Of a stretch of 64,000 bases of DNA, positions 29,601 through 64,000 are shown piece after piece. Numbering within the stretch: position 1 is the stretch's first letter; each line of letters starts with the position of its first letter. Origin of the DNA: Nakaseomyces glabratus (taxonomy: Eukaryota > Ascomycota > Saccharomycetes > Saccharomycetales > Saccharomycetaceae); contig NC_088959.1 of NCBI RefSeq assembly GCF_010111755.1, forward strand, positions 992,001-1,056,000, written 5' to 3'. A model generated the notes under the pieces. It did not search any database and was not told the origin of the DNA. It saw nothing but the letters and a program-made list of their open reading frames with translations. The position numbers and the translations under genes are program-made.

Positions 29601-32600
29601 CCGACTGGGTCTCATTCTTCATCACTACAGATGAGAAGGGCGACATCATAACAGGCAGCACGACCATCAACGGCACCCGTGACTACCTTGATGCCGATGC
29701 TCCCCACAACTCGCTGGCTCCAGCACCTTCCCCAGTGACACACACCATCGACCTGGGCAACGGGGTCACCAACTATGAGGTGGTGTCCTACAGAACCACC
29801 ACGAACGAGTATGGAGGTTACATCACAGTCACAGAGACCGTCACTTTCAAGGCGCCTCCGGTGACTGTGGTGGAGCTGAAGGGCGACGACTATGTTGAGT
29901 CCGACTGGGTCTCATTCTTCATCACTACAGATGAGAAGGGCGACATCATAACAGGCAGCACGACCATCAACGGCACCCGTGACTACCTTGATGCCGATGC
30001 TCCCCACAACTCGCTGGCTCCAGCACCTTCCCCAGTGACACACACCATCGACCTGGGCAACGGGGTCACCAACTATGAGGTGGTGTCCTACAGAACCACC
30101 ACGAACGAGTATGGAGGTTACATCACAGTCACAGAGACCGTCACTTTCAAGGCGCCTCCGGTGACTGTGGTGGAGCTGAAGGGCGACGACTATGTTGAGT
30201 CCGACTGGGTCTCATTCTTCATCACTACAGATGAGAAGGGCGACATCATAACAGGCAGCACGACCATCAACGGCACCCGTGACTACCTTGATGCCGATGC
30301 TCCCCACAACTCGCTGGCTCCAGCACCTTCCCCAGTGACACACACCATCGACCTGGGCAACGGGGTCACCAACTATGAGGTGGTGTCCTACAGAACCACC
30401 ACGAACGAGTATGGAGGTTACATCACAGTCACAGAGACCGTCACTTTCAAGGCGCCTCCGGTGACTGTGGTGGAGCTGAAGGGCGACGACTATGTTGAGT
30501 CCGACTGGGTCTCATTCTTCATCACTACAGATGAGAAGGGCGACATCATAACAGGCAGCACGACCATCAACGGCACCCGTGACTACCTTGATGCCGATGC
30601 TCCCCACAACTCGCTGGCTCCAGCACCTTCCCCAGTGACACACACCATCGACCTGGCAACGGGGTCACCAACTATGAGGTGGTGTCCTACAGAACCACCA
30701 CGAACGAGTATGGAGGTTACATCACAGTCACAGAGACCGTCACTTTCAAGGCGCCTCCGGTGACTGTGGTGGAGCTGAAGGGCGACGACTATGTTGAGTC
30801 CGACTGGGTCTCATTCTTCATCACTACAGATGAGAAGGGCGACATCATAACAGGCAGCACGACCATCAACGGCACCCGTGACTACCTTGATGCCGATGCT
30901 CCCCACAACTCGCTGGCTCCAGCACCTTCCCCAGTGACACACACCATCGACCTGGGCAACGGGGTCACCAACTATGAGGTGGTGTCCTACAGAACCACCA
31001 CGAACGAGTATGGAGGTTACATCACAGTCACAGAGACCGTCACTTTCAAGGCGCCTCCGGTGACTGTGGTGGAGCTGAAGGGCGACGACTATGTTGAGTC
31101 CGACTGGGTCTCATTCTTCATCACTACAGATGAGAAGGGCGACATCATAACAGGCAGCACGACCATCAACGGCACCCGTGACTACCTTGATGCCGATGCT
31201 CCCCACAACTCGCTGGCTCCAGCACCTTCCCCAGTGACACACACCATCGACCTGGGCAACGGGGTCACCAACTATGAGGTGGTGTCCTACAGAACCACCA
31301 CGAACGAGTATGGAGGTTACATCACAGTCACAGAGACCGTCACTTTCAAGGCGCCTCCGGTGACTGTGGTGGAGCTGAAGGGCGACGACTATGTTGAGTC
31401 CGACTGGGTCTCATTCTTCATCACTACAGATGAGAAGGGCGACATCATAACAGGCAGCACGACCATCAACGGCACCCGTGACTACCTTGATGCCGATGCT
31501 CCCCACAACTCGCTGGCTCCAGCACCTTCCCCAGTGACACACACCATCGACCTGGGCAACGGGGTCACCAACTATGAGGTGGTGTCCTACAGAACCACCA
31601 CGAACGAGTATGGAGGTTACATCACAGTCACAGAGACCGTCACTTTCAAGGCGCCTCCGGTGACTGTGGTGGAGCTGAAGGGCGACGACTATGTTGAGTC
31701 CGACTGGGTCTCATTCTTCATCACTACAGATGAGAAGGGCGACATCATAACAGGCAGCACGACCATCAACGGCACCCGTGACTACCTTGATGCCGATGCT
31801 CCCCACAACTCGCTGGCTCCAGCACCTTCCCCAGTGACACACACCATCGACCTGGGCAACGGGGTCACCAACTATGAGGTGGTGTCCTACAGAACCACCA
31901 CGAACGAGTATGGAGGTTACATCACAGTCACAGAGACCGTCACTTTCAAGGCGCCTCCGGTGACTGTGGTGGAGCTGAAGGGCGACGACTATGTTGAGTC
32001 CGACTGGGTCTCATTCTTCATCACTACAGATGAGAAGGGCGACATCATAACAGGCAGCACGACCATCAACGGCACCCGTGACTACCTTGATGCCGATGCT
32101 CCCCACAACTCGCTGGCTCCAGCACCTTCCCCAGTGACACACACCATCGACCTGGCAACGGGGTCACCAACTATGAGGTGGTGTCCTACAGAACCACCAC
32201 GAACGAGTATGGAGGTTACATCACAGTCACAGAGACCGTCACTTTCAAGGCGCCTCCGGTGACTGTGGTGGAGCTGAAGGGCGACGACTATGTTGAGTCC
32301 GACTGGGTCTCATTCTTCATCACTACAGATGAGAAGGGCGACATCATAACAGGCAGCACGACCATCAACGGCACCCGTGACTACCTTGATGCCGATGCTC
32401 CCCACAACTCGCTGGCTCCAGCACCTTCCCCAGTGACACACACCATCGACCTGGGCAACGGGGTCACCAACTATGAGGTGGTGTCCTACAGAACCACCAC
32501 GAACGAGTATGGAGGTTACATCACAGTCACAGAGACCGTCACTTTCAAGGCGCCTCCGGTGACTGTGGTGGAGCTGAAGGGCGACGACTATGTTGAGTCC

Positions 32601-35600
32601 GACTGGGTCTCATTCTTCATCACTACAGATGAGAAGGGCGACATCATAACAGGCAGCACGACCATCAACGGCACCCGTGACTACCTTGATGCCGATGCTC
32701 CCCACAACTCGCTGGCTCCAGCACCTTCCCCAGTGACACACACCATCGACCTGGGCAACGGGGTCACCAACTATGAGGTGGTGTCCTACAGAACCACCAC
32801 GAACGAGTATGGAGGTTACATCACAGTCACAGAGACCGTCACTTTCAAGGCGCCTCCGGTGACTGTGGTGGAGCTGAAGGCGACGACTATGTTGAGTCCG
32901 ACTGGGTCTCATTCTTCATCACTACAGATGAGAAGGGCGACATCATAACAGGCAGCACGACCATCAACGGCACCCGTGACTACCTTGATGCCGATGCTCC
33001 CCACAACTCGCTGGCTCCAGCACCTTCCCCAGTGACACACACCATCGACCTGGGCAACGGGGTCACCAACTATGAGGTGGTGTCCTACAGAACCACCACG
33101 AACGAGTATGGAGGTTACATCACAGTCACAGAGACCGTCACTTTCAAGGCGCCTCCGGTGACTGTGGTGGAGCTGAAGGGCGACGACTATGTTGAGTCCG
33201 ACTGGGTCTCATTCTTCATCACTACAGATGAGAAGGGCGACATCATAACAGGCAGCACGACCATCAACGGCACCCGTGACTACCTTGATGCCGATGCTCC
33301 CCACAACTCGCTGGCTCCAGCACCTTCCCCAGTGACACACACCATCGACCTGGGCAACGGGGTCACCAACTATGAGGTGGTGTCCTACAGAACCACCACG
33401 AACGAGTATGGAGGTTACATCACAGTCACAGAGACCGTCACTTTCAAGGCGCCTCCGGTGACTGTGGTGGAGCTGAAGGGCGACGACTATGTTGAGTCCG
33501 ACTGGGTCTCATTCTTCATCACTACAGATGAGAAGGGCGACATCATAACAGGCAGCACGACCATCAACGGCACCCGTGACTACCTTGATGCCGATGCTCC
33601 CCACAACTCGCTGGCTCCAGCACCTTCCCCAGTGACACACACCATCGACCTGGGCAACGGGGTCACCAACTATGAGGTGGTGTCCTACAGAACCACCACG
33701 AACGAGTATGGAGGTTACATCACAGTCACAGAGACCGTCACTTTCAAGGCGCCTCCGGTGACTGTGGTGGAGCTGAAGGGCGACGACTATGTTGAGTCCG
33801 ACTGGGTCTCATTCTTCATCACTACAGATGAGAAGGGCGACATCATAACAGGCAGCACGACCATCAACGGCACCCGTGACTACCTTGATGCCGATGCTCC
33901 CCACAACTCGCTGGCTCCAGCACCTTCCCCAGTGACACACACCATCGACCTGGGCAACGGGGTCACCAACTATGAGGTGGTGTCCTACAGAACCACCACG
34001 AACGAGTATGGAGGTTACATCACAGTCACAGAGACCGTCACTTTCAAGGCGCCTCCGGTGACTGTGGTGGAGCTGAAGGGCGACGACTATGTTGAGTCCG
34101 ACTGGGTCTCATTCTTCATCACTACAGATGAGAAGGGCGACATCATAACAGGCAGCACGACCATCAACGGCACCCGTGACTACCTTGATGCCGATGCTCC
34201 CCACAACTCGCTGGCTCCAGCACCTTCCCCAGTGACACACACCATCGACCTGGGCAACGGGGTCACCAACTATGAGGTGGTGTCCTACAGAACCACCACG
34301 AACGAGTATGGAGGTTACATCACAGTCACAGAGACCGTCACTTTCAAGGCGCCTCCGGTGACTGTGGTGGAGCTGAAGGGCGACGACTATGTTGAGTCCG
34401 ACTGGGTCTCATTCTTCATCACTACAGATGAGAAGGGCGACATCATAACAGGCAGCACGACCATCAACGGCACCCGTGACTACCTTGATGCCGATGCTCC
34501 CCACAACTCGCTGGCTCCAGCACCTTCCCCAGTGACACACACCATCGACCTGGGCAACGGGTCACCAACTATGAGGTGGTGTCCTACAGAACCACCACGA
34601 ACGAGTATGGAGGTTACATCACAGTCACAGAGACCGTCACTTTCAAGGCGCCTCCGGTGACTGTGGTGGAGCTGAAGGGCGACGACTATGTTGAGTCCGA
34701 CTGGGTCTCATTCTTCATCACTACAGATGAGAAGGGCGACATCATAACAGGCAGCACGACCATCAACGGCACCCGTGACTACCTTGATGCCGATGCTCCC
34801 CACAACTCGCTGGCTCCAGCACCTTCCCCAGTGACACACACCATCGACCTGGGCAACGGGGTCACCAACTATGAGGTGGTGTCCTACAGAACCACCACGA
34901 ACGAGTATGGAGGTTACATCACAGTCACAGAGACCGTCACTTTCAAGGCGCCTCCGGTGACTGTGGTGGAGCTGAAGGGCGACGACTATGTTGAGTCCGA
35001 CTGGGTCTCATTCTTCATCACTACAGATGAGAAGGGCGACATCATAACAGGCAGCACGACCATCAACGGCACCCGTGACTACCTTGATGCCGATGCTCCC
35101 CACAACTCGCTGGCTCCAGCACCTTCCCCAGTGACACACACCATCGACCTGGGCAACGGGGTCACCAACTATGAGGTGGTGTCCTACAGAACCACCACGA
35201 ACGAGTATGGAGGTTACATCACAGTCACAGAGACCGTCACTTTCAAGGCGCCTCCGGTGACTGTGGTGGAGCTGAAGGGCGACGACTATGTTGAGTCCGA
35301 CTGGGTCTCATTCTTCATCACTACAGATGAGAAGGGCGACATCATAACAGGCAGCACGACCATCAACGGCACCCGTGACTACCTTGATGCCGATGCTCCC
35401 CACAACTCGCTGGCTCCAGCACCTTCCCCAGTGACACACACCATCGACCTGGGCAACGGGGTCACCAACTATGAGGTGGTGTCCTACAGAACCACCACGA
35501 ACGAGTATGGAGGTTACATCACAGTCACAGAGACCGTCACTTTCAAGGCGCCTCCGGTGACTGTGGTGGAGCTGAAGGGCGACGACTATGTTGAGTCCGA

Positions 35601-38600
35601 CTGGGTCTCATTCTTCATCACTACAGATGAGAAGGGCGACATCATAACAGGCAGCACGACCATCAACGGCACCCGTGACTACCTTGATGCCGATGCTCCC
35701 CACAACTCGCTGGCTCCAGCACCTTCCCCAGTGACACACACCATCGACCTGGGCAACGGGGTCACCAACTATGAGGTGGTGTCCTACAGAACCACCACGA
35801 ACGAGTATGGAGGTTACATCACAGTCACAGAGACCGTCACTTTCAAGGCGCCTCCGGTGACTGTGGTGGAGCTGAAGGGCGACGACTATGTTGAGTCCGA
35901 CTGGGTCTCATTCTTCATCACTACAGATGAGAAGGGCGACATCATAACAGGCAGCACGACCATCAACGGCACCCGTGACTACCTTGATGCCGATGCTCCC
36001 CACAACTCGCTGGCTCCAGCACCTTCCCCAGTGACACACACCATCGACCTGGGCAACGGGGTCACCAACTATGAGGTGGTGTCCTACAGAACCACCACGA
36101 ACGAGTATGGAGGTTACATCACAGTCACAGAGACCGTCACTTTCAAGGCGCCTCCGGTGACTGTGGTGGAGCTGAAGGGCGACGACTATGTTGAGTCCGA
36201 CTGGGTCTCATTCTTCATCACTACAGATGAGAAGGGCGACATCATAACAGGCAGCACGACCATCAACGGCACCCGTGACTACCTTGATGCCGATGCTCCC
36301 CACAACTCGCTGGCTCCAGCACCTTCCCCAGTGACACACACCATCGACCTGGGCAACGGGGTCACCAACTATGAGGTGGTGTCCTACAGAACCACCACGA
36401 ACGAGTATGGAGGTTACATCACAGTCACAGAGACCGTCACTTTCAAGGCGCCTCCGGTGACTGTGGTGGAGCTGAAGGGCGACGACTATGTTGAGTCCGA
36501 CTGGGTCTCATTCTTCATCACTACAGATGAGAAGGGCGACATCATAACAGGCAGCACGACCATCAACGGCACCCGTGACTACCTTGATGCCGATGCTCCC
36601 CACAACTCGCTGGCTCCAGCACCTTCCCCAGTGACACACACCATCGACCTGGGCAACGGGGTCACCAACTATGAGGTGGTGTCCTACAGAACCACCACGA
36701 ACGAGTATGGAGGTTACATCACAGTCACAGAGACCGTCACTTTCAAGGCGCCTCCGGTGACTGTGGTGGAGCTGAAGGGCGACGACTATGTTGAGTCCGA
36801 CTGGGTCTCATTCTTCATCACTACAGATGAGAAGGGCGACATCATAACAGGCAGCACGACCATCAACGGCACCCGTGACTACCTTGATGCCGATGCTCCC
36901 CACAACTCGCTGGCTCCAGCACCTTCCCCAGTGACACACACCATCGACCTGGGCAACGGGGTCACCAACTATGAGGTGGTGTCCTACAGAACCACCACGA
37001 ACGAGTATGGAGGTTACATCACAGTCACAGAGACCGTCACTTTCAAGGCGCCTCCGGTGACTGTGGTGGAGCTGAAGGGCGACGACTATGTTGAGTCCGA
37101 CTGGGTCTCATTCTTCATCACTACAGATGAGAAGGGCGACATCATAACAGGCAGCACGACCATCAACGGCACCCGTGACTACCTTGATGCCGATGCTCCC
37201 CACAACTCGCTGGCTCCAGCACCTTCCCCAGTGACACACACCATCGACCTGGGCAACGGGGTCACCAACTATGAGGTGGTGTCCTACAGAACCACCACGA
37301 ACGAGTATGGAGGTTACATCACAGTCACAGAGACCGTCACTTTCAAGGCGCCTCCGGTGACTGTGGTGGAGCTGAAGGGCGACGACTATGTTGAGTCCGA
37401 CTGGGTCTCATTCTTCATCACTACAGATGAGAAGGGCGACATCATAACAGGCAGCACGACCATCAACGGCACCCGTGACTACCTTGATGCCGATGCTCCC
37501 CACAACTCGCTGGCTCCAGCACCTTCCCCAGTGACACACACCATCGACCTGGGCAACGGGGTCACCAACTATGAGGTGGTGTCCTACAGAACCACCACGA
37601 ACGAGTATGGAGGTTACATCACAGTCACAGAGACCGTCACTTTCAAGGCGCCTCCGGTGACTGTGGTGGAGCTGAAGGGCGACGACTATGTTGAGTCCGA
37701 CTGGGTCTCATTCTTCATCACTACAGATGAGAAGGGCGACATCATAACAGGCAGCACGACCATCAACGGCACCCGTGACTACCTTGATGCCGATGCTCCC
37801 CACAACTCGCTGGCTCCAGCACCTTCCCCAGTGACACACACCATCGACCTGGGCAACGGGGTCACCAACTATGAGGTGGTGTCCTACAGAACCACCACGA
37901 ACGAGTATGGAGGTTACATCACAGTCACAGAGACCGTCACTTTCAAGGCGCCTCCGGTGACTGTGGTGGAGCTGAAGGGCGACGACTATGTTGAGTCCGA
38001 CTGGGTCTCATTCTTCATCACTACAGATGAGAAGGGCGACATCATAACAGGCAGCACGACCATCAACGGCACCCGTGACTACCTTGATGCCGATGCTCCC
38101 CACAACTCGCTGGCTCCAGCACCTTCCCCAGTGACACACACCATCGACCTGGGCAACGGGGTCACCAACTATGAGGTGGTGTCCTACAGAACCACCACGA
38201 ACGAGTATGGAGGTTACATCACAGTCACAGAGACCGTCACTTTCAAGGCGCCTCCGGTGACTGTGGTGGAGCTGAAGGGCGACGACTATGTTGAGTCCGA
38301 CTGGGTCTCATTCTTCATCACTACAGATGAGAAGGGCGACATCATAACAGGCAGCACGACCATCAACGGCACCCGTGACTACCTTGATGCCGATGCTCCC
38401 CACAACTCGCTGGCTCCAGCACCTTCCCCAGTGACACACACCATCGACCTGGGCAACGGGGTCACCAACTATGAGGTGGTGTCCTACAGAACCACCACGA
38501 ACGAGTATGGAGGTTACATCACAGTCACAGAGACCGTCACTTTCAAGGCGCCTCCGGTGACTGTGGTGGAGCTGAAGGGCGACGACTATGTTGAGTCCGA

Positions 38601-40554
38601 CTGGGTCTCATTCTTCATCACTACAGATGAGAAGGGCGACATCATAACAGGCAGCACGACCATCAACGGCACCCGTGACTACCTTGATGCCGATGCTCCC
38701 CACAACTCGCTGGCTCCAGCACCTTCCCCAGTGACACACACCATCGACCTGGGCAACGGGGTCACCAACTATGAGGTGGTGTCCTACAGAACCACCACGA
38801 ACGAGTATGGAGGTTACATCACAGTCACAGAGACCGTCACTTTCAAGGCGCCTCCGGTGACTGTGGTGGAGCTGAAGGGCGACGACTATGTTGAGTCCGA
38901 CTGGGTCTCATTCTTCATCACTACAGATGAGAAGGGCGACATCATAACAGGCAGCACGACCATCAACGGCACCCGTGACTACCTTGATGCCGATGCTCCC
39001 CACAACTCGCTGGCTCCAGCACCTTCCCCAGTGACACACACCATCGACCTGGGCAACGGGGTCACCAACTATGAGGTGGTGTCCTACAGAACCACCACGA
39101 ACGAGTATGGAGGTTACATCACAGTCACAGAGACCGTCACTTTCAAGGCGCCTCCGGTGACTGTGGTGGAGCTGAAGGGCGACGACTATGTTGAGTCCGA
39201 CTGGGTCTCATTCTTCATCACTACAGATGAGAAGGGCGACATCATAACAGGCAGCACGACCATCAACGGCACCCGTGACTACCTTGATGCCGATGCTCCC
39301 CACAACTCGCTGGCTCCACCGCCATCTCCGGTTACAAACTTAATTATTGATGTGTATGAGAATGTTACTGAATATGAAGTGGTTTCGTATTATATTAAAG
39401 CTAACGCATATGGTCAATATTTAACACTAACTGAAACTATAACTTTCAAAGCCCCTCCGACTACTGTTGTTGAGGTGAAGGGGAGGGATTATGATATTAG
39501 GATTTATGTCTCTTATTTTATTACTGTTGCAAATAATGGAGTTTTAATAACGGAATCAACAACTTTAAGCGAAGTGAAAGAGTGCCTTGGTGCGGAGGGT
39601 ATTTCTAAGCTTAAATCATATTCGTACAATTGGGCTCCAAAACAGCTGCATTTCCCGAATAGTACTATCAGTTCAAGTTCTATTGATAGCTGTACTAATG
39701 AGTGTGATAAAATGGACGAAAATTCTTCCAAGGTTAAAAATCCTAATGCAAAACTAGGACATATGTCTGATGCACTTTCAATCACTCAGGAGGTGTATGG
39801 TGAAATGCTACCCAATTCTTCCCATATTTCTATTGAAACTTTTCCAACCTCCCTAATAAGTTCTAGACCCAATACGATAGGTGAGTCTGGAGCGAGCTCG
39901 TCTAACTTAATTATGTCTGATAAACTGATAGATTCAGTCACAGTAAATGAAATTTTCAGACATTCAACTATTAGTAGTACGAACTTTAACAGTACCACAA
40001 CAACTCGTGATAGCTTAGCAAATGTAGCAATAGAGCTTATTTCAAAATTATCTCCGCATAAAAGCGATGCTTTCCCTGCGACAACACCCGGAAATGAAAT
40101 AAACTCTAATTCACTACAGCCTTCGCGTGACGACTCATCAAGCATTGGTAATAGTTTAATGCATTCTAGGGACACGATACAATTATACAATAGCAACCAG
40201 TCGTCAAAGCCTGAATTATATGCCTCTGAAACATTAACCACTCATTCCGAGCCTGCAACATCAGGTTTGATCTCAGCAGAGCCTCCAAGGAGCTCCATTA
40301 TTTTTTCACCATCTACAATTAATTTATATTCACGTTTTAACTCTACACTAGGAACGGTTATTTCAAAATACTCGACAATGAGTGTGAGTCCACCGATGAA
40401 TGCCAGCTATAGCAAGCAATTCAATAAAACTATTTGCTCAGTATATTATCCTGATTCACAAATAATAAATGGATGTGCATCTGGAATCATAAATTATTGG
40501 CAATGTAATTTTATTTTTCCAATACTAGTATTACAACTGTTTTTTATACTCTGA
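20638..40554 (+). CDS. Adhesin C: giant PA14 adhesin with about 59 identical repeats; frame broken by six 1-base deletions
   Basis: Residues 1-18 are a signal peptide (ending IALS, before KNP). The PA14 domain spans about 23-220, with C28, C140, C214 and C217, the D125-D126 calcium/sugar pair and WEGYIWQY near its end. After a diverged linker, the 100-residue repeats run from residue 304. As written, the frame meets a stop at 27978 (2446 aa, no anchor). Deletions near 27904, 27931, 30655, 32154, 32879 and 34559 sum to six bases, so the last segment is again in the starting frame and runs to a stop at 40552-40554. Without the deletions the product would be about 6640 aa, ending in a roughly 410-residue tail: one diverged repeat, a Ser/Thr/Asn-rich region and a hydrophobic GPI signal (FPILVLQLFFIL). 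The intact termini suggest a functional gene with consensus errors rather than a pseudogene. Expected role: cell-wall lectin on an exceptionally long stalk. Confidence 0.82.
21549..39318 (+). repeat. 17.8-kb array: about 59.25 identical 300-bp coding repeats in adhesin C
   Basis: From 21549 to 39318 every copy reads the same apart from six single-base losses in G or C runs. Adding those six bases makes the span 17776 bp, or 59.25 units. One unit counted by hand has 168 G+C in 300 (56%), while the flanking parts of the same gene are clearly AT-rich. The unit encodes two half-modules (YEVVSYRTTTNEYGG and YVESDWVSFFITTDEKG) and one NGT glycosylation sequon. Both array edges are abrupt: identity drops at once to diverged flanking copies. 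Confidence 0.96.
27903..34561 (+). other. Six single-base homopolymer deletions in the middle of the adhesin C array
   Basis: Compared with the unit consensus: CCCC to CCC at 27904-27906 and again at 27931-27933 (same unit), GGG to GG at 30655-30656, at 32154-32155 and at 32879-32880, and GGGG to GGG at 34559-34561. All are losses in runs of three or four G or C, none is a substitution or insertion, and all fall in the centre of the array, with over 6 kb on the left and nearly 5 kb on the right free of them. The sum is minus six, so the frame is restored at the end. Confidence 0.93.
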
Positions 40555-43050: not shown

Positions 43051-45819
43051 TTAGGTGTGCTGTATCTGATTCAATAGACCTACAAATGTAGAGTTATTCT
43101 TTTCTTTCCACGATTTTAGGTATGCTGATAATTCGCTTACTGTAAAATTATTCTGAGATTTAAGTTCCCAGCATATAGACAGAGCCTTGGATCTGGATAA
43201 TTTTTCCATGTTCACTAAATAGATAAAGAAATCAACTATTGGCTTCCTTTCCCTGTATATTTTCTCGAAACCTGTTCTCCACTTGGATTTGTATTTTTTG
43301 TTCATAGAATGGACACACATGTTACCTTGTTTTGGATCTGGCGTATACCATTCTTGTATAATCTCATCAATACTATCGAGGGTGTCTGCCATTCGGAAAA
43401 CAAAATGTTCTTCTTCGGCACCTGTGCTAGAGGTATTAACTTTGTCATTGAATTTTTCTTTGATACCATCATCAATACTCTTTCTGATCTTCTTGGTATT
43501 GTCTATTTCAAAGTCACCTTCGTAACTACGTTTTTTACTCTCTTGAGCTATATAGTGGTTGAATTTTTCTGAGACGGTATTTTTAACTAAGCTTTCTAAC
43601 TTCATTTCCATCTGTTCAAATTTCACATCAAAAAGGGTAGATAATTTTTTGGTAACAAGTTCATCTATCATAGAGCTAATTTGTTCTTGCATCGCATTTT
43701 CTTCCTCATGCAAATCATCTGTCGAACTATCACTTTCAGTACTAGAGTCATTAACTGAATCTTCATTAGCATCGTCAGTTCCAGATGATGAATCATCAAC
43801 AGACAGTAGTTTGAATCTCCTTTTCTGTTTTTGCTTTTTGCGTTTCAAATTGTCAACTACATCCCTACCAGATATTTGTTTATCTACACTATTCGACTCT
43901 TTATTGATGTACCGTAAACCATTTTTCTTTTCAAGTATATCGTCAAAATAACTAGTGATTTCTTCAGATGTAACGGAATTAAGTCTTGCGTTGACATATT
44001 TTGTCAGTGTTTCAAACTTATTGATTATGAATTCTCTGGTAGATCTTTTCATGTCTAACTTTTCAAAAACTTTTTTGAAAGTGTCAATCATTGGATTGAA
44101 ATTTGATAAAGTCTGAAATTGGACTAATTTGAAAGCTTCCTTTTTCCAACCACTATTATTAGTAATAGGTGGTGCCAGAGCAACAGAACTGCTTTGGCCT
44201 TCATTTCCTGTCACGGGGATATTATAAATACTATCGTGTACTGATGGTATTGAGTCAGATTTAACACCAGCTTTGAAATTTGGCTCCACTAAATATTGCA
44301 ACATAATATTATTTTCTATCAGGCCTGTATGATAACCTGGAATGTTTCTTAGCGGTGGTGGTATCGAGTTGATATCGATAGTAGAATCATTATTAGAAAT
44401 TAGTGCGATACGTTCATTAAAGTATGATACAAAATCGGAATTCTGGAATATGCTTGTTTGGTCACTAAAGATTTCGTGATCAGGAAAATATCTGTAAATC
44501 CATGGCAAATTTATAACTAAGACATTCCTAAGAACTTCAAGCACTTTTAAGAACTCTTTCGATTTAGTTGTTAATATGTTATAACTCTCCCTTTTGTACT
44601 TTTCTATCTCAGGAAATACCTGTACTAAGAGATCATTGGGGGGTAATTCCGTGATTTCAGGTATCGTTAACCCATCTTGTACTCCATCATAGTTAGAATA
44701 GTTAAAAATTCTTTCGTAGTCAAGAGGTATATGTGCAGGGAACAGTCGATCAAATTTCATTTCCTCATTATTGGGGTAGTCTGTTAGAAATTCTTTATAT
44801 GCCGGGTTGGAGGTATCAGGATACCTTATATTCTTGACCCCATTTTTTTCATCACTGCTTCCATGAAGGTAGACCCTTCGTTTGTATTCCAAAGAGCAAT
44901 ACTTAAAGGCACTTGAGTAATAATTCCCTAACGTCTCTTCACGAGGATAGTCCTTTAAAGACTTTCCTCGAATGAGCGGTAGGTCAAAATCCTTAGTCAG
45001 TTCAGGAAATCCGTCTCCTCTATAGATGGGTTTCACACCATAAAATCGAAGGTACAAATAAGCCGCTAATGTTGTTATGGGGCATATTAATGGACAATCG
45101 TGTGGTATCACAGTTCCCTGAACAGCACCGTCATCATTTATGATAATTAATCTATACGCATTTAAAGAGTTTTCATCGTTTTCAACATTATGCACTTTTA
45201 GATGTGATAGTTTTAATTTGGACCGTTCCTTGTATGGCCAATTGAGAAGTGTATAGAAGTGATAGTCTGTAAGAAATCGAAGCTTCTCCATACTAGTTTT
45301 GAAATATTTATCTGAGAGTTCTTGTGTATTTGAATTCCACATGTTTATAGATAAGGTTGCCATCTTATTTAGTTGAGATGATTGTGATTCGTCCTTTAAT
45401 AAAGAGTCCCATCTTCTATGCAATTCTAACACATCTGTAATGTAATCATCAAATTCAGAGTTTGGATCCACTTCAGAGTGAATATCACACAGTTTCTTGA
45501 GAAATCGAAATGACTCGATATATATCTGTAATTCATTGACATCTGATGCCACAATAGGCCATTTGATCACACATTCTAGCAGAAATAAGTGTACCAGTTG
45601 TGGAAGCAACGGTACGTTCTCATATGGTATACTTGAATTGCTCTCAAAACTTAATAGCTCTTTTTGTTCACACCATTCTATGTATTTCATGTAGTATGAC
45701 TTGTATTGATGCACCTTGATTGGAGCAACTGACTCCATGAGTTTCCGAATCTCATTGTCCTTGGAGATCATGATTGTGTGACCTAGAGGAATTTCATCTG
45801 CCTTGCTAGTAATCACCAA
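43051..45819 (-). CDS. Ndc10/Crypton-like protein with C-terminal GCR1_C DNA-binding domain, 922 aa
   Basis: Not an adhesin. Residues about 25-115 are helical, resembling the N-terminal SAM-like DNA-binding part of tyrosine recombinases. Residues about 165-410 resemble the Ndc10 domain II/Crypton recombinase fold: a KERSKLKLSHL segment at the place of the first catalytic Arg (R199), CPITTLAAYLYLRFYG (246-261), and PPNDLLVQVFPEIEKYKR (393-410), which matches the PP-L-FP-IE signature that follows the fold. The usual HxxR, G-R-W and tyrosine motifs cannot be recognised, so recombinase activity looks lost. Residues 659-668 are a basic, nuclear-signal-like cluster, 672-710 an acidic Ser-rich stretch and 708-755 probably coiled coil. 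Residues about 818-905 match GCR1_C (YTPDPKQGNMCVHSMNKKY, then KWR and RERKPIVDFF). It is probably a nuclear DNA-binding factor derived from a Crypton transposon, or an unusual Gcr1-type activator. Confidence 0.72.
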   Translation of the reverse strand: MVITSKADEIPLGHTIMISKDNEIRKLMESVAPIKVHQYKSYYMKYIEWCEQKELLSFESNSSIPYENVPLLPQLVHLFLLECVIKWPIVASDVNELQIYIESFRFLKKLCDIHSEVDPNSEFDDYITDVLELHRRWDSLLKDESQSSQLNKMATLSINMWNSNTQELSDKYFKTSMEKLRFLTDYHFYTLLNWPYKERSKLKLSHLKVHNVENDENSLNAYRLIIINDDGAVQGTVIPHDCPLICPITTLAAYLYLRFYGVKPIYRGDGFPELTKDFDLPLIRGKSLKDYPREETLGNYYSSAFKYCSLEYKRRVYLHGSSDEKNGVKNIRYPDTSNPAYKEFLTDYPNNEEMKFDRLFPAHIPLDYERIFNYSNYDGVQDGLTIPEITELPPNDLLVQVFPEIEKYKRESYNILTTKSKEFLKVLEVLRNVLVINLPWIYRYFPDHEIFSDQTSIFQNSDFVSYFNERIALISNNDSTIDINSIPPPLRNIPGYHTGLIENNIMLQYLVEPNFKAGVKSDSIPSVHDSIYNIPVTGNEGQSSSVALAPPITNNSGWKKEAFKLVQFQTLSNFNPMIDTFKKVFEKLDMKRSTREFIINKFETLTKYVNARLNSVTSEEITSYFDDILEKKNGLRYINKESNSVDKQISGRDVVDNLKRKKQKQKRRFKLLSVDDSSSGTDDANEDSVNDSSTESDSSTDDLHEEENAMQEQISSMIDELVTKKLSTLFDVKFEQMEMKLESLVKNTVSEKFNHYIAQESKKRSYEGDFEIDNTKKIRKSIDDGIKEKFNDKVNTSSTGAEEEHFVFRMADTLDSIDEIIQEWYTPDPKQGNMCVHSMNKKYKSKWRTGFEKIYRERKPIVDFFIYLVNMEKLSRSKALSICWELKSQNNFTVSELSAYLKSWKEKNNSTFVGLLNQIQHT

Positions 45820-47503: not shown

Positions 47504-50500
47504 ATGCCCCTCATAGGAAAATATTTTCATTTTCTTATATTGTGTCTGTTGAGCCTGATTGGGCTAGTATTAGCCGCAAATCCAGTACCTTTGACCAATG
47601 TTTGCTACTTTCCCGAAGAATATCCAAGACAGGCTGGCTTTCGTGCAATAACAGCAGGACTTGCCTCTACAATCTTACAAGGGTCCGTCGATGAGTTGCT
47701 AAACTACTCTGGTCTTTCTTCATTGACCACACAACAAACGACAACTACAACCCCGAACTTTCAGTTGCCAACACTGCCTCTACCAACGAACGTGTATGGG
47801 CTTACGGTGGTACCGTTATACCTTCTAGTCCAATTGCAAGGTTATTTTGTACCGCCTGTTTCCGGACAATACACATTTTCATTAGAAAATACAAACGATG
47901 CCGCTATCATCTTCTTCGGCAACCCATCTGCATTTCCATGCGGCGATCTATCCGCATGGCCTCAGGCCAGTGCTGATGATATTACAGTCACAGATGGTAC
48001 TTTTCCGTCAAGAACGTTGTTTCTGAAAGCCGGAGTAGCGTACCCAATGCGAATTTCTTACTATAACTCTTTGGGCTCAGGAAATTTGGCAGTTTCGTTC
48101 ACAGATCCCGGCGGAACCAAACGCACGAACTGGAACGGATACATCTGGAGATACAACTCATGTTCCACATGCACATACACTCCGCCACCAGCTGGCACCA
48201 CAATTTACTCCTCTGGATGGCTTCTTGACAGCACAACTGTGACAACTAGTTATAGTTTATATACAGGTATTGATGGCGTGGAAAGTACTTATACGCTTTA
48301 TAAGGTGGGTGTGCCAACTATTACACCTTCCCTTGAAGTACCACCATTGACTACAGTCACGCTAAGTTACAATGAATACAATGAGGAAAATGTAGTTAGC
48401 TATTATAGCACGACTACGGATGATGGCAGTCCCATAATTGCAAGCACAACATTGACAATTCGAACTATCTATTCAGAAGCTCCAGAACCAATAACAATTA
48501 CGATAGAAATACAACCAGGACTAACAAACTATGAAATAATATCCTACTGGACTACAACCAACGCAGATGGACAATTTATAACAACCAGCACCTCGACGAC
48601 GTACAGTCCACCGCCTGTTGGGACGGTGAGTGTGTATGAGAACCACGAGCTGGTTGAGGATGTGTACTCTTACTTCATCACACTGGATGGGTCTGGGAAC
48701 ATCATCACGGACAGCGTTCTGATCTCTGCTACGACGATCTACGATGCAGCGCCCGAGCCTTCGACGAATGTGATTGACCTGGGGGAGGAGGTGACTGGGT
48801 ATGAGGTTATTTCCTTCTACACGACAGTCGACGGGGATGGTAAGGTGGTCACCACCAGCACCTCGACGACGTACAGTCCACCGCCTGTTGGGACGGTGAG
48901 TGTGTATGAGAACCACGAGCTGGTTGAGGATGTGTACTCTTACTTCATCACACTGGATGGGTCTGGGAACATCATCACGGACAGCGTTCTGATCTCTGCT
49001 ACGACGATCTACGATGCAGCGCCCGAGCCTTCGACGAATGTGATTGACCTGGGCGAGGAGGTGACTGGGTATGAGGTTGTAACGTATTGGACTATGACGA
49101 ACGAAGCGGGCGATCTGATCACTACTAGCAGCACGGTGACATACAGTCCCCCCGCAATCACTGTTGTCGGAACCACTGGCAGTAACTATGTAGAGTCTGA
49201 TTGGATCTCTTTCTTTATCACGAGGGATGTGGAAGGCCAGTTGGTTACGGGAAGTACAACTTTGAACGGCACGCGTGAGTACATTGAAGCTGAGGTAGTG
49301 GAGACTTCATTGTTATCAGTACCCACTGCAGAGACAAGGACCATAGATTCAGGAAATGGAGTGACTGAGTATGAGGTTGTAACGCATTGGACTACGACGA
49401 ACGAAGCGGGCGATCTGATCACTACTAGCAGCACGGTGACATACAGTCCCCCCGCAATCACTGTTGTCGGAACCACTGGCAGTAACTATGTAGAGTCTGA
49501 TTGGATCTCTTTCTTTATCACGAGGGATGTGGAAGGCCAGTTGGTTACGGGAAGTACAACTTTGAACGGCACGCGTGAGTACATTGAAGCTGAGGTAGTG
49601 GAGACTTCATTGTTATCAGTACCCACTGCAGAGACAAGGACCATAGATTCAGGAAATGGAGTGACTGAGTATGAGGTTGTAACGCATTGGACTACGACGA
49701 ACGAAGCGGGCGATCTGATCACTACTAGCAGCACGGTGACATACAGTCCCCCCGCAATCACTGTTGTCGGAACCACTGGCAGTAACTATGTAGAGTCTGA
49801 TTGGATCTCTTTCTTTATCACGAGGGATGTGGAAGGCCAGTTGATTACAGGAAGTAGCATTGTTGATTATTCCTTTTTTTCTGCGTTGAACAGAACAATT
49901 TCTAATGCTGGAAGTAATAGCTTATCTGAGGAAGCGTCTTCTCAGACTTCCATTTCTGATCTTAAACCTGATATAGCAACAATCACTAATCTCAGAGCAA
50001 CATCTAGTATTACCATGTCTTCCTATGTCAGCTCCGCAAAAAGATGGAGCAATAGTTCGAAAGAAATTAAAATCAGTACTAGTTCATCTGCAACCTCAAA
50101 TAAAGAACTCACAAAAGCTAGTTCTTATTATCTAAAGGGGACCATTGTTAACACTATTGCTAATGTACCTGGAGCGCTCTCTAGTAAGAATGCTATTTCA
50201 AATAGTGTAGGGGTTCACCCCCCAATTAAAACTGATGAGGCAACGTCAGCGACCAGTTCATATGGAAACTCAAGAATGGACACACATTCATGGGTTCCTA
50301 GCAGTAAGAGCTCCCCAACTCCAAGTTCGGTTGAATCAAGTAACATTTCATCAGTAATTAATCAGTTTGAAAATAATACAACGTTAGAAACTAGAAGGAA
50401 GACTAATATCGAAAGTAAAATGTCTCAGAGCTCAAGTCATGATAATGAGCTATATGGATCCTTTTACGGAGGAAGTCCGCACACTAGAGAGGGGAACCTA

Positions 50501-50542
50501 TCTGTGGCTTTAGTGATTATTCTAGTTCAATTTCTGCTGTAA
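47504..50542 (+). CDS. Adhesin D: complete GPI-anchored PA14 adhesin with altered DD motif, 1012 aa
   Basis: Residues 1-24 are a signal peptide (ending GLVLA, before ANP). The PA14 domain spans about 29-226, with conserved cysteines (VCYFP, FPCGD, CSTC) and WNGYIWRY. Unlike the four other adhesins here, the conserved D-D pair reads Asn-Asp (TNDAAIIFFGN, N131-D132; codons AAC GAT near 47894). In Flo5/Epa-type domains both aspartates coordinate calcium and the sugar, so ligand binding may be changed or lost. Residues about 363-525 hold 270-bp repeats and about 525-783 hold 300-bp repeats. Residues about 784-985 are a Ser/Thr/Asn-rich stalk, and the hydrophobic tail (VALVIILVQFLL) fits GPI anchoring. 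The frame is intact. Confidence 0.92.
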   Translation: MPLIGKYFHFLILCLLSLIGLVLAANPVPLTNVCYFPEEYPRQAGFRAITAGLASTILQGSVDELLNYSGLSSLTTQQTTTTTPNFQLPTLPLPTNVYGLTVVPLYLLVQLQGYFVPPVSGQYTFSLENTNDAAIIFFGNPSAFPCGDLSAWPQASADDITVTDGTFPSRTLFLKAGVAYPMRISYYNSLGSGNLAVSFTDPGGTKRTNWNGYIWRYNSCSTCTYTPPPAGTTIYSSGWLLDSTTVTTSYSLYTGIDGVESTYTLYKVGVPTITPSLEVPPLTTVTLSYNEYNEENVVSYYSTTTDDGSPIIASTTLTIRTIYSEAPEPITITIEIQPGLTNYEIISYWTTTNADGQFITTSTSTTYSPPPVGTVSVYENHELVEDVYSYFITLDGSGNIITDSVLISATTIYDAAPEPSTNVIDLGEEVTGYEVISFYTTVDGDGKVVTTSTSTTYSPPPVGTVSVYENHELVEDVYSYFITLDGSGNIITDSVLISATTIYDAAPEPSTNVIDLGEEVTGYEVVTYWTMTNEAGDLITTSSTVTYSPPAITVVGTTGSNYVESDWISFFITRDVEGQLVTGSTTLNGTREYIEAEVVETSLLSVPTAETRTIDSGNGVTEYEVVTHWTTTNEAGDLITTSSTVTYSPPAITVVGTTGSNYVESDWISFFITRDVEGQLVTGSTTLNGTREYIEAEVVETSLLSVPTAETRTIDSGNGVTEYEVVTHWTTTNEAGDLITTSSTVTYSPPAITVVGTTGSNYVESDWISFFITRDVEGQLITGSSIVDYSFFSALNRTISNAGSNSLSEEASSQTSISDLKPDIATITNLRATSSITMSSYVSSAKRWSNSSKEIKISTSSSATSNKELTKASSYYLKGTIVNTIANVPGALSSKNAISNSVGVHPPIKTDEATSATSSYGNSRMDTHSWVPSSKSSPTPSSVESSNISSVINQFENNTTLETRRKTNIESKMSQSSSHDNELYGSFYGGSPHTREGNLSVALVIILVQFLL
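48591..49077 (+). repeat. 270-bp coding repeats in adhesin D (1.8 copies)
   Basis: The segment beginning CCTCGACGAC at 48591 recurs at 48861 and stays nearly identical until about 49077. The 90-residue unit carries YENHELVEDVYSYFIT and DLGEEVTGYEVISFYTT half-modules. A related unit (YENHEHVVDVYSYFIT) occurs in adhesin A around 1400-1560. Confidence 0.93.
49076..49850 (+). repeat. 300-bp coding repeats in adhesin D (2.6 copies)
   Basis: Copies begin at 49076, 49376 and 49676; the last stops near 49850, where the Ser/Thr-rich tail begins. The unit contains YVESDWISFFITRDVEG and an NGT sequon, so it belongs to the same 100-residue repeat family as adhesins A, B and C. Confidence 0.94.
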
Positions 50543-54577: not shown

Positions 54578-57500
54578 ATGTGGATAATGAAATTTTTGAC
54601 AGTATTGTTGGTATTTATACTCAATTTAGACATTACTAATGGTCAATTAAAAGACGAATCTGATAATAATAAGGCATTCCTGGGTGTTCCTTACGCTGTT
54701 GGCAATCCAATAACAGTCTCCAATGTTTGTTCTTTTCCCAAAAATTGGCACAGAACAGCAGGATTCAGAGCCCTTACAGCAAGGCTGGGTATTGGTATTC
54801 AATCAGATTCATACAAAGAGTTGTTGAATTATCCCGGTACTTTCCAATTAACCACTCAACAGTCAAGCACAACAAAACCTAACTTTCAAATCAGTGGTTT
54901 GGTAGGGAATATTTATGGATTAACCATTGTACCAAGCTATCTGTTAGTGGAATTGACTGGATATTTTGTTCCACCTGTCTCGGGTGAGTATACATTTTCA
55001 CTTGAAGGATCTGATGATGCGGCCATTATCTTCATTGCCAACCCTTCTACGTTTAAATGTGGGCACGTTGAAGATTGGCCAACCGCATATGATAACGATG
55101 TGACCGTCACAGAGTCTATACACGCAACTAGAACCATCTACATGATTGAGGGTGTTGCTTATCCTATCCGTATTGCTTATTACAATGGACTATCATTAGG
55201 AAAATTGCAGGCGTCATTTACTGATCCCGAAGGTGTAAAGAGAGTCGATTGGAACGGATATATCTGGAGATATGATTCGTGTGATACATGTTCTTATGTA
55301 CCACCACCAACTGTAGTTACAACAGAAACTTCTAGCTGGGTTCTGAATCCTACGACTACAGGAACTAGTTATAGCACAGCTTTGGGAATTGATGGTTTGC
55401 CAACTACATATACCATCTACCAAGTGGTTGTTCCAACTATAACTAAGTCTCTTGAAATTCCTCCTCCTATTACGCAAACAGATACCCATCCTGACTATTT
55501 GGAAGAGGAAGTTGTTAGTTACTATAGTACTACCAATGCTGAAGGTAGTCCGATTACTGGCACCACCACTTCCACCATTCGGACGATTTTGATTATACCA
55601 CCCCCCATTACCATCACAGTTACTAAGGAAGGGTGGGAAGAAGAACAAGAAATCTCGTACTTTAGTACAACCGATGCTAATGGCCATGGAATCACTGGAA
55701 CTATAACTAAGACCGTAAGATTACGTGTAGATGTACCAACCCCATTTACGACAACATACACCAGCAATCATGAACAGGTTGAGGCTGAAGTATCGTATAT
55801 ACCCACTGTTGATGCGGATGGAAAGCCTACTTATGTTACAACTACCAAGGTTATAGCAATTTCGCACTTGCCGCCTCCTCCAGGTTATACAGTTACAGTT
55901 GATGTGGGAAATGAAGTGACCCACTATGAAGTTGTTAGCTACTTCACGACAGAAGACGAAAATGGGCAATTTTACACTGGCACATCCACTGTTACATTTA
56001 CTCCACCAAGTCCAACCACGATTACAATTACCAAAGAAGGTGTTGAGGAAACTGACTACGTTTCATATTTCATAACTACAGATGCCGAACACAATATTAT
56101 AACGAGCAGTTCAGTCAGTAAAATACTCGACGATGGATTAGACAAGACGACTGTTGTGACTGATGAGGATGGGACAGTGCACACCGACATCATCTCGCAC
56201 ATCACCACTACGGATGCGGAGGGCAACCCCACGATAATCTTGACCACGTACCCATCGCCTACTGACGACGGGTTGGACAAGACGACTGTTGTGACTGATG
56301 AGGATGGGACAGTGCACACCGACATCATCTCGCACATCACCACTACGGATGCGGAGGGCAACCCCACGATAATCTTGACCACGTACCCATCGCCTACTGA
56401 CGACGGGTTGGACAAGACGACTGTTGTGACTGATGAGGATGGGACAGTGCACACCGACATCATCTCGCACATCACCACTACGGATGCGGAGGGCAACCCC
56501 ACGATAATCTTGACCACGTACCCATCGCCTACTGACGACGGGTTGGACAAGACGACTGTTGTGACTGATGAGGATGGGACAGTGCACACCGACATCATCT
56601 CGCACATCACCACTACGGATGCGGAGGGCAACCCCACGATAATCTTGACCACGTACCCATCGCCTACTGACGACGGGTTGGACAAGACGACTGTTGTGAC
56701 TGATGAGGATGGGACAGTGCACACCGACATCATCTCGCACATCACCACTACGGATGCGGAGGGCAACCCCACGATAATCTTGACCACGTACCCATCGCCT
56801 ACTGACGACGGGTTGGACAAGACGACTGTTGTGACTGATGAGGATGGGACAGTGCACACCGACATCATCTCGCACATCACCACTACGGATGCGGAGGGCA
56901 ACCCCACGATAATCTTGACCACGTACCCATCGCCTACTGACGACGGGTTGGACAAGACGACTGTTGTGACTGATGAGGATGGGACAGTGCACACCGACAT
57001 CATCTCGCACATCACCACTACGGATGCGGAGGGCAACCCCACGATAATCTTGACCACGTACCCATCGCCTACTGACGACGGGTTGGACAAGACGACTGTT
57101 GTGACTGATGAGGATGGGACAGTGCACACCGACATCATCTCGCACATCACCACTACGGATGCGGAGGGCAACCCCACGATAATCTTGACCACGTACCCAT
57201 CGCCTACTGACGACGGGTTGGACAAGACGACTGTTGTGACTGATGAGGATGGGACAGTGCACACCGACATCATCTCGCACATCACCACTACGGATGCGGA
57301 GGGCAACCCCACGACAATCTTGACCACGTACCCATCGCCTACTGATTCTATTGGAAATCCAATTGCGTTATCTAATGTTTGTTCATTTCCAGAGAGTAGA
57401 TCTAGAACTGCGGGGTTCAGAGTACTCACTGCAGGGCTGGGTATATGGATTACGTCAGATTCCTACAAAGAGTTGTTGAATTATTCTGGTAGTTCCCAGT

Positions 57501-60500
57501 TGATCACTCAACAGTCCAGTACCACCCAACCGAACTTTGAAATTGGTGGTTTGGTAGGGAATATTTATGGATTAACCATTGTACCAAGCTATCTGTTAGT
57601 GGAATTGACTGGATATTTTGTTCCACCTGTCTCGGGTGAGTATACATTTTCACTTGAAGGATCTGATGATGCGGCCATTATCTTCATTGCCAACCCTTCT
57701 ACGTTTAAATGTGGTAATATTGAAGACTGGCCAACACCGAATGAAGCTGATATATCTGTCACTGATACTATACATACATCTAGAACTCTCTACATGGTCG
57801 AGGGTGTTGCTTATCCTATCCGTATTGCTTATTACAATGGACTATCAATAGGAAAATTGCAGGCGTCCTTCACAGATCCTAGGGGTGTAAGGAGAGTCGA
57901 TTGGAACGGATATATCTGGAGATATGATTCGTGTGATACATGTTCTTATGTACCACCACCAACTGTAGTTACAACAGAAACTTCTAGCTGGGTTCTGAAT
58001 CCTACGACTACAGGAACTAGTTATAGCACAGCTTTGGGAATTGATGGTTTGCCAACTACATATACCATCTACCAAGTGGTTGTTCCAACTATAACTAAGT
58101 CTCTTGAAATTCCTCCTCCTATTACGCAAACAGATACCCATCCTGACTATTTGGAAGAGGAAGTTGTTAGTTACTATAGTACTACCAATGCTGAAGGTAG
58201 TCCGATTACTGGCACCACCACTTCCACCATTCGGACGATTTTGATTATCCCACCCCCCATTACCATCACAGTTACTAAGGAAGGGTGGGAAGAAGAACAA
58301 GAAATCTCGTACTTTAGTACAACCGATGCTAATGGACATGGAATCACTGGAAGCACTACTAGAACAATAAATTTCCATGTAGACCTACCGACACCATTTA
58401 CGACAACATACACCAGCAATCATGAACAGGTTGAGGCTGAAGTATCGTATATACCCACTGTTGATGAGGATGGAAAGCCTACTTATGTTACAACTACCAA
58501 GGTTATAGCAATTTCGCACTTGCCGCCTCCTCCAGGTTATACAGTTACAGTTGATGTGGGAAATGAAGTGACCCACTATGAAGTTGTTAGCTACTTCACG
58601 ACAGAAGACGAAAATGGGCAATTTTACACTGGCACATCCACTGTTACATTTACTCCACCAAGTCCAACCACGATTACAATTACCAAAGAAGGTGTTGAGG
58701 AAACTGACTACGTTTCATATTTCATAACTACAGATGCCGAACACAATATTATAACGAGCAGTTCAGTCAGTAAAATACTCGACGATGGATTAGACAAGAC
58801 GACTGTTGTGACTGATGAGGATGGGACAGTGCACACCGACATCATCTCGCACATCACCACTACGGATGCGGAGGGCAACCCCACGATAATCTTGACCACG
58901 TACCCATCGCCTACTGACGACGGGTTGGACAAGACGACTGTTGTGACTGATGAGGATGGGACAGTGCACACCGACATCATCTCGCACATCACCACTACGG
59001 ATGCGGAGGGCAACCCCACGATAATCTTGACCACGTACCCATCGCCTACTGACGACGGGTTGGACAAGACGACTGTTGTGACTGATGAGGATGGGACAGT
59101 GCACACCGACATCATCTCGCACATCACCACTACGGATGCGGAGGGCAACCCCACGATAATCTTGACCACGTACCCATCGCCTACTGACGACGGGTTGGAC
59201 AAGACGACTGTTGTGACTGATGAGGATGGGACAGTGCACACCGACATCATCTCGCACATCACCACTACGGATGCGGAGGGCAACCCCACGATAATCTTGA
59301 CCACGTACCCATCGCCTACTGACGACGGGTTGGACAAGACGACTGTTGTGACTGATGAGGATGGGACAGTGCACACCGACATCATCTCGCACATCACCAC
59401 TACGGATGCGGAGGGCAACCCCACGATAATCTTGACCACGTACCCATCGCCTACTGACGACGGGTTGGACAAGACGACTGTTGTGACTGATGAGGATGGG
59501 ACAGTGCACACCGACATCATCTCGCACATCACCACTACGGATGCGGAGGGCAACCCCACGATAATCTTGACCACGTACCCATCGCCTACTGATTCTATTG
59601 GAAATCCAATTGCGTTATCTAATGTTTGTTCATTTCCAGAGAGTAGATCTAGAACTGCGGGGTTCAGAGTACTCACTGCAGGGCTGGGTATATGGATTAC
59701 GTCAGATTCCTACAAAGAGTTGTTGAATTATTCTGGTAGTTCCCAGTTGATCACTCAACAGTCCAGTACCACCCAACCGAACTTTGAAATTGGTGGTTTG
59801 GTAGGGAATATTTATGGATTAACCATTGTACCAAGCTATCTGTTAGTGGAATTGACTGGATATTTTGTTCCACCTGTCTCGGGTGAGTATACATTTTCAC
59901 TTGAAGGATCTGATGATGCGGCCATTATCTTCATTGCCAACCCTTCTACGTTTAAATGTGGTAATATTGAAGACTGGCCAACACCGAATGAAGCTGATAT
60001 ATCTGTCACTGATACTATACATACATCTAGAACTCTCTACATGGTCGAGGGTGTTGCTTATCCTATCCGTATTGCTTATTACAATGGACTATCAATAGGA
60101 AAATTGCAGGCGTCCTTCACAGATCCTAGGGGTGTAAGGAGAGTCGATTGGAACGGATATATCTGGAGATATGATTCGTGTGATACATGTTCTTATGTAC
60201 CACCACCAACTGTAGTTACAACAGAAACTTCTAGCTGGGTTCTGAATCCTACGACTACAGGAACTAGTTATAGCACAGCTTTGGGAATTGATGGTTTGCC
60301 AACTACATATACCATCTACCAAGTGGTTGTTCCAACTATAACTAAGTCTCTTGAAATTCCTCCTCCTATTACGCAAACAGATACCCATCCTGACTATTTG
60401 GAAGAGGAAGTTGTTAGTTACTATAGTACTACCAATGCTGAAGGTAGTCCGATTACTGGCACCACCACTTCCACCATTCGGACGATTTTGATTATCCCAC

Positions 60501-64000: not shown

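Follow-up and report, generated by a model that had tools for sequence, protein, structure and literature searches.

Overall architecture of PWP4

The DNA analysed here is a 64,000-nucleotide stretch of the Nakaseomyces glabratus genome (the window), corresponding to positions 992,001–1,056,000 of contig C9 (NC_088959.1; 1,142,525 bp) in an assembly of 12.73 Mb and 13 contigs. A gene at its right-hand end, which its sequence identifies as the known PWP4, encodes a single chain with five PA14/GLEYA domains, one of a type designated A at the N-terminus and four of a type designated B within the stalk. The product is probably a glycosylphosphatidylinositol (GPI)-type cell-wall adhesin in a five-lectin form, a functional multivalent string in which the number of beads changes by recombination.

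The open frame starts at 54557 on the + strand, has its first ATG at 54578, and runs to the window end (coding sequence 54578–64000 within the window). When followed into the downstream DNA (C9:1055000-1074999), it remained open to a TAA stop at window-equivalent position 67717 (L006:4718), 3.7 kb past the window. The coding stretch is 13.1 kb long and the whole product has 4,379 amino acids without an internal stop. A chance or frame artefact was ruled out, with 4,379 open codons against 85 to 455 stops in each of the five other frames. Pfam detected four GLEYA and four PA14 stretches in the window part of the product and one of each in the remainder, and a PA14 profile of 205 positions, which we made from domains 1 and 2, aligned over its full length to each of the five domains. 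The 1-kb stretch bearing the first PA14 domain had five matches in the genome, all inside PWP4. The initial annotation had described four complete PA14 domains in one frame; the single frame holds, while the count is corrected to five, the fifth domain lying past the window. Weak Pfam matches within the repeats (Cwp8_D2, DUF2755, and HypF_C) included no stretch that passed alone and were dismissed as repeat artefacts.

A frame break or splicing between the modules had also been considered in the initial annotation, and neither was found. In a consensus search, the whole coding stretch lacked all five TACTAAC-type branch-point heptamers that were sought, and its window part lacked all five 5'-splice hexamers. 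GTATGT was the only one of these hexamers found in the gene, at 66415 and 66868 in the C-terminal part. Splicing between the modules is rejected as far as such a consensus search reaches.

Behind each of the five domains come a linker and then tandem 45-residue units bearing the SHITT motif, so that a module consists of a fixed 476-residue part (PA14 domain and linker) and an array. All features lie on the + strand. A signal-peptide-like stretch (54578–54643), judged hydrophobic by eye from the translation, precedes module 1, which comprises the type-A domain (residues 42–246, 54701–55315; Pfam, genome search, and our profile), a linker (55316–56128), and an array of nine units of 135 bp (56129–57343). 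The type-B domains 2, 3, and 4 are at 57353–57967, 59600–60214, and 61982–62596, respectively; all three were detected by Pfam and our profile, and domain 2 also by its predicted fold and matches in the Protein Data Bank (PDB). Their linkers are at 57968–58780, 60215–61027, and 62597–63409, and their arrays have six (58781–59590), seven (61028–61972), and seven units (63410–64000, cut by the window end). The remainder (window-equivalent 64364–67717; L006:1365-4718) contains module 5 with a type-B PA14 domain, a linker, and four units, then two more pairs of a spacer and a single SHITT unit, and a hydrophobic GPI-like C-terminal tail that was also judged by eye. Of the 35 units in total, 27 are identical in DNA sequence. 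Thr and Ser account for 20% and 8% of the product. The 45-residue arrays of the initial annotation were thus present, although unequal in length (9, 6, 7, 7, and 4 units, plus the two single ones near the C-terminus).

The DD pair, a putative calcium-site Asn, and four cysteines are in the same places in all five domains. In relatives of these domains, the D-D pair and the Asn bind calcium. Where Flo and Epa domains have a cysteine doublet, all five have Cys-Gly; the DD pair and the conserved cysteines noted initially are therefore confirmed, but not as the Flo/Epa doublet. An N-glycosylation sequon, NYSG, is present in every type-B domain (57353–57967 and the others), and the first domain reads NYPG, without a sequon.

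Identification of the gene

Primers and a probe for PWP4 have been published (PMC4863579, mSphere 2016). Within the window, the forward primer and the reverse primer have three exact matches apiece, in modules 2, 3, and 4, where no match would be expected by chance, and neither matches module 1 with up to two mismatches allowed. Genome-wide, exactly four matches were obtained with the forward primer and likewise with the probe, in modules 2 to 5. The amplicon sites on the + strand are 57394–57508, 59641–59755, and 62023–62137, plus module 5 beyond the window (forward primer and probe). Because the published primers and probe match exactly, and only in its internal modules 2–5, the gene is identified by sequence as the known PWP4 of N. 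glabratus, a cluster II Pwp protein and not a new adhesin. For the same reason, the published transcript assay targets the type-B domain. To the right of PWP4 are genes for a major facilitator superfamily transporter and a proteasome subunit, which agrees with the location of TPO3 (CAGL0I10384g) next to PWP4.

PWP4 is CAGL0I10362g in a table of in vivo adhesin expression, where its log2 value is −4.02 (PMC9348041, table row). VSHITT repeats are a recognised megasatellite of N. glabratus (PMC6023349, PMC6023314), and variable-number repeat arrays have been reported in wall-protein genes of this species (PMC6023349). The gene is a known Pwp gene, as opposed to a Flo, Epa, or Komagataella one, and its arrays are the known SHITT megasatellite.

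Related proteins with PA14 domains

A search of the genome gave at least 32 GLEYA matches (these counts being lower bounds), of which five are in the PWP4 frame, while the other 27 are each alone in a frame of their own. More than one match was found in only one of the 28 GLEYA-bearing frames, that of PWP4, and one of the 27 single-match frames is a fragment with an internal stop. Two other giant frames with one GLEYA match were observed, of 5,276 residues (G000:C1:18774-19064, − strand) and 4,205 residues (G000:C12:1457570-1457848, + strand).

Two protein searches, in which the best 7,991 and 7,988 candidates by shared words were scored, yielded 25 database proteins (P0002–P0026). With our PA14 profile, five of the 25 contained more than one PA14 stretch, 15 contained one, and five contained none by this profile, which misses distant PA14 proteins (P0024 is unmatched, yet has PF07691 in the database). 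All five multi-PA14 proteins are PWP4-like. P0012, named as N. glabratus, has an A and then a B domain, and P0002 has A, B, and B; both ends are present in each. P0003 has A, B, and an incomplete third domain, P0010 has A and a truncated B, and P0011 has two B stretches, one of them truncated, behind a false-looking N-terminus. P0013, a single-PA14 protein by the profile, has one B domain and a false-looking start like that of P0011. The order of A before B is common to P0012, P0002, P0003, and the window PWP4. The search for other proteins with several PA14 domains that the initial annotation envisaged thus returned PWP4-like relatives with two (P0012) or three (P0002) domains, and the architecture is not private to this assembly. 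A protein search admitting lengths of approximately 2,400 to 7,700 amino acids gave no larger PWP4 allele; it returned six Pwp-type proteins that had already been found, with one PA14 domain each. The first 450 residues of P0015 and P0017 are identical.

Two domain types and exchange between modules

The fixed parts of modules 2–5 are 1–2 nt apart over 1,428 nt, while module 1 differs from them at 103–104 positions (43–44 residues), so that the linkers called identical in the initial annotation are nearly so in modules 2–5 and clearly not in module 1. Modules 3 and 4 are equally long, with a single-nucleotide difference over 2,382 nt. Types A and B are 84% identical, and their differences are clustered. 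The synonymous (dS) and nonsynonymous (dN) divergences are 1.39 and 0.144 in codons 1–60 and 0.49 and 0.138 in codons 121–187, whereas dS is 0.02 in codons 61–120, which contain the calcium-site DD. The dN/dS ratio over codons 1–187 is 0.22, and those of the two diverged segments are 0.10 and 0.28, rough estimates from short segments. These values suggest purifying selection. Modules 1 and 2 share identical tracts of 169, 357, and 313 nt; the first spans the calcium-site core and the second follows it. In 10,000 random placements of 103 differences, an identical tract of 357 nt or longer never arose.

We compared 12 modules from four proteins (window PWP4, P0012, P0002, and P0003). Residues 1–186 sort by position, with 0–11 differences within A or within B across the proteins and 34–43 between A and B. 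In contrast, residues 187–330 and 376–476 sort by protein, with 0–1 differences between modules of one protein and 4–8 between the class of window PWP4 and P0012 and the class of P0002 and P0003. Residues 331–375 mostly sort by position, except that module 1 of P0012 bears the B-type version. The near-identity of linkers within a protein indicates that the modules have exchanged sequence, while the diverged A and B parts have stayed distinct, with A first. The calcium-site residues and cysteines are kept in every type-B copy of the four proteins. The loop beside the calcium-site Asn reads LSLGKL in type A of all four proteins and differs by allele class in type B (LSIGKL or LSTGRL; window PWP4 and P0012 versus P0002 and P0003).

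This concerted pattern, in which A and B stay distinct despite the homogenisation of neighbouring sequence, together with a dN/dS well below 1, is the main reason to suppose that both A and B domains are functional and that the inner ones are more than passengers.

Comparison with known yeast adhesins

The PWP4 product shares several features with the Pwp family (cluster II, PWP1–7): the Pwp type of PA14 domain, the SHITT repeats, ends that resemble a signal peptide and a GPI tail, and a position in a row of Pwp paralogues. Domain 2 is 57–64% identical to the four other Pwp-type domains of the window by alignment, and protein relatives bear the species name N. glabratus, one of them being named PWP2. 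Other Pwp-like proteins, 14 of the 25 database proteins, have one PA14 domain each, unlike PWP4. A review describes an N-terminal PA14 domain, whereas the present frame has five, four of them within the stalk. Adherence to endothelial cells is reported to fall when the relative PWP7 is deleted.

The predicted fold of internal domain 2 is of moderate confidence, and its PDB matches are Flo and Epa A domains. The PWP4 domains resemble those of Flo-type flocculins (Flo1, Flo5, Lg-Flo1, KpFlo2, and Cea1) in this predicted fold and in the D-D/Asn calcium-site residues, but have Cys-Gly in place of the Cys-Cys doublet. The Flo type has been defined by flocculin and/or Flocculin_t3 repeats beside PA14/GLEYA (PMC8621652), and neither flocculin (PF00624) nor Flocculin_t3 (PF13928) was matched at E ≤ 0.01 in either half of the PWP4 product in the Pfam search. 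The Cys-Gly motif also does not fit a legend of Kock 2018, which implies a CC motif outside its CC-less cluster. Epa1, Epa6, and Epa9 are wall adhesins of the same species with the PA14/GLEYA fold that is predicted for domain 2, but match the PWP4 domains only weakly in sequence (E = 2e-5 to 3e-4). By alignment with Flo proteins, PWP4 has LSLGK (A) or LSIGK (B) at the place of VSWGT in Flo1, a motif for which a published equivalence points to the EYDGA loop of Epa1. The loop at this position varies among Epa proteins.

Flo11-type adhesins provide a precedent for several adhesin domains in one protein, although Flo11 is another domain family; six Flo11 domains are listed for Candida intermedia, three for Clavispora, and two for Cyberlindnera (PMC8621652, Table 3). 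Each of the eight PA14/GLEYA Flo-type examples in Table 2 of that paper has one adhesin domain. Bacterial RTX adhesins with PA14 (MhLap and MpIBP) are secreted by the type I route and have stalks unrelated to that of PWP4. Yeast adhesins with several heads are thus already documented, though none with PA14 heads in the literature surveyed. A long-read assembly paper of 2020 by Xu et al. reportedly deals with these arrays and may well show PWP4. Phrase searches of PubMed Central, whose coverage does not extend to Xu et al. 2020 or Thierry et al. 2008, found no yeast protein with several PA14 domains, and a prior description is possible. The available parts of PMC6218569, PMC8621652, PMC10228781, PMC12321659, and PMC6023314 contain no such protein, and those of PMC5054605, PMC11542307, PMC5555451, and PMC10769879 do not describe a multi-PA14 Pwp4.

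Proposed function and alternative explanations

In the proposed mechanism, Pwp4 would be secreted and held in the wall by its GPI tail, presenting calcium-dependent lectins strung along its length. One molecule could then bind glycans at several points, giving avidity, and the internal lectins would keep one lectin exposed if the tip were lost or buried. Unequal exchange or gene conversion among modules and arrays that are almost identical would add or remove internal lectins and would lengthen or shorten the spacers. Lectin activity is predicted for Pwp4 from its sequence, and the avidity, bridging, and display at different heights proposed in the initial annotation are putative. The beads-on-a-string anatomy put forward in the initial annotation is upheld by the relatives with two and three PA14 domains, the fold model, and the apparent purifying selection between A and B.

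Several points weigh against this interpretation. The internal domains may be buried in the wall, and Kock 2018 describes the role of the Pwp A domains as unresolved. A Pwp paralogue at 47504 has N-D for D-D, which suggests that Pwp domains can lose the calcium site. With 1–2 nt of difference, the B copies are too similar for selection to be measured copy by copy, and the A–B selection estimates rest on short segments. All the database relatives derive from assemblies or gene predictions of unknown quality: P0003, P0010, P0011, and P0013 resemble products of a gene caller that introduced false introns or broke the frame, and the arrays of P0012 have a single SHITT unit each, perhaps through collapse of short reads. 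PA14 counts in other strains are therefore indicative only, and the evolutionary interpretation draws on a small number of proteins.

The strongest alternative, to which we assign a minor but appreciable probability, is that the internal PA14 copies were swept along by expansion of the SHITT arrays and linkers and merely lengthen the stalk, their own binding being irrelevant. The near-identity of modules 2–5, and of modules 3 and 4 over 2,382 nt, points to recent amplification of a long unit, as would be expected under this explanation, and the variable-number arrays of N. glabratus wall-protein genes are a further point in its favour. On the other hand, type B keeps its calcium-site residues and cysteines in all copies of four proteins, the A–B comparison indicates purifying selection both overall and in the two diverged segments, and A and B remain distinct while the adjoining sequence has been homogenised.

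It is improbable that the real gene has two or three modules, one or more of which were repeated by the assembly. Modules 3 and 4, equal in length and 1 nt apart, and the database proteins with two or three PA14 domains are what such an artefact would produce; yet the array lengths are unequal, some modules carry private single-base marks, and the frame is open over 13.1 kb. Multi-PA14 PWP4-like proteins also exist in other records, and a miscount would alter the number of domains and not the architecture. The exact count of five comes from the assembly and is provisional.

Least probable of all, by a little, is a donor role, in which the main use of the internal B copies would be to supply sequence for segmental gene conversion that diversifies the exposed N-terminal domain: the identical 169-nt and 357-nt tracts of modules 1 and 2, the low dS of codons 61–120 beside 1.39 and 0.49, the random placements, and the B-type linker stretch 331–375 in module 1 of P0012 all fit it, but in the four proteins compared the first domain retains its A-type flanks and no mosaic N-terminal domain was seen, conversion shows exchange and not role, and the P0012 linker could have arisen as a chimera during assembly.

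Neighbouring genes in the window

Several Pwp-type genes that encode PA14/GLEYA domains are lined up in the window, PWP4 among them. The four neighbours (a domain at 2351–2632 on the − strand, and 11646–16412, 20638–40554, and 47504–50542 on the + strand) match database Pwp-type proteins over their first 250 residues at 239/250 (P0005), 250/250 (P0016), 225/250 (P0004, PWP2), and 249/250 (P0008), respectively. The first lies at the start of a 7,244-residue open frame (2–2953, − strand) with one PA14/GLEYA match and 300-bp repeats, which exits the window leftwards. The PWP2-like gene (20638–40554) contains 59.3 copies of a 300-bp unit at 21549–39318. Five of its 59 unit spacings are 298 or 299 bp (at 27849, 30547, 32046, 32645, and 34444) instead of 300 bp, and the open frame is interrupted in these units, owing to either real decay or sequencing error. 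The PA14 domain of the paralogue at 47504–50542 reads Asn-Asp (NTNDAAII), while the other five aligned domains read Asp-Asp, and its calcium site may be lost. The protein encoded at 43051–45771 (− strand), among the adhesin genes, matches the N-terminal domain and domain II of Ndc10 and also has a GCR1_C domain.

Variation in lectin number

The complete proteins have one (P0012), two (P0002), and four (window PWP4) B lectins per molecule. Duplication of PWP4 has been reported in strain M12 from chromosome-level assemblies (PMC9548116), and PWP4 is listed among genes for which read depth indicated duplication between paired isolates (PMC6379656) and among the most variable genes of isolate FFUL887 (PMC6023349). 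Read depth cannot separate a second PWP4 gene from extra modules, and some of the reported duplications may be module changes. As a tentative proposal, PWP4 might act as a rheostat of lectin valency, with two lectin types that separated long ago, A at the tip and B in the stalk, and the number of B domains reset by recombination between isolates, perhaps within a patient. If so, the read-depth duplications of PWP4 in serial isolates would partly be changes of lectin number inside one gene.

In practical terms, the published quantitative PCR (qPCR) amplicon for PWP4 sits in the four internal modules of this genome and is absent from the first domain, so that the signal per gene copy depends on the number of modules. 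Yeast PA14 adhesins are usually pictured as a passive stalk topped by a single lectin. If the stalk bears lectins of its own, adhesion strength, reach, and variation between isolates would have to be modelled differently, and valency would become a genetically variable trait in N. glabratus, a common human pathogen.
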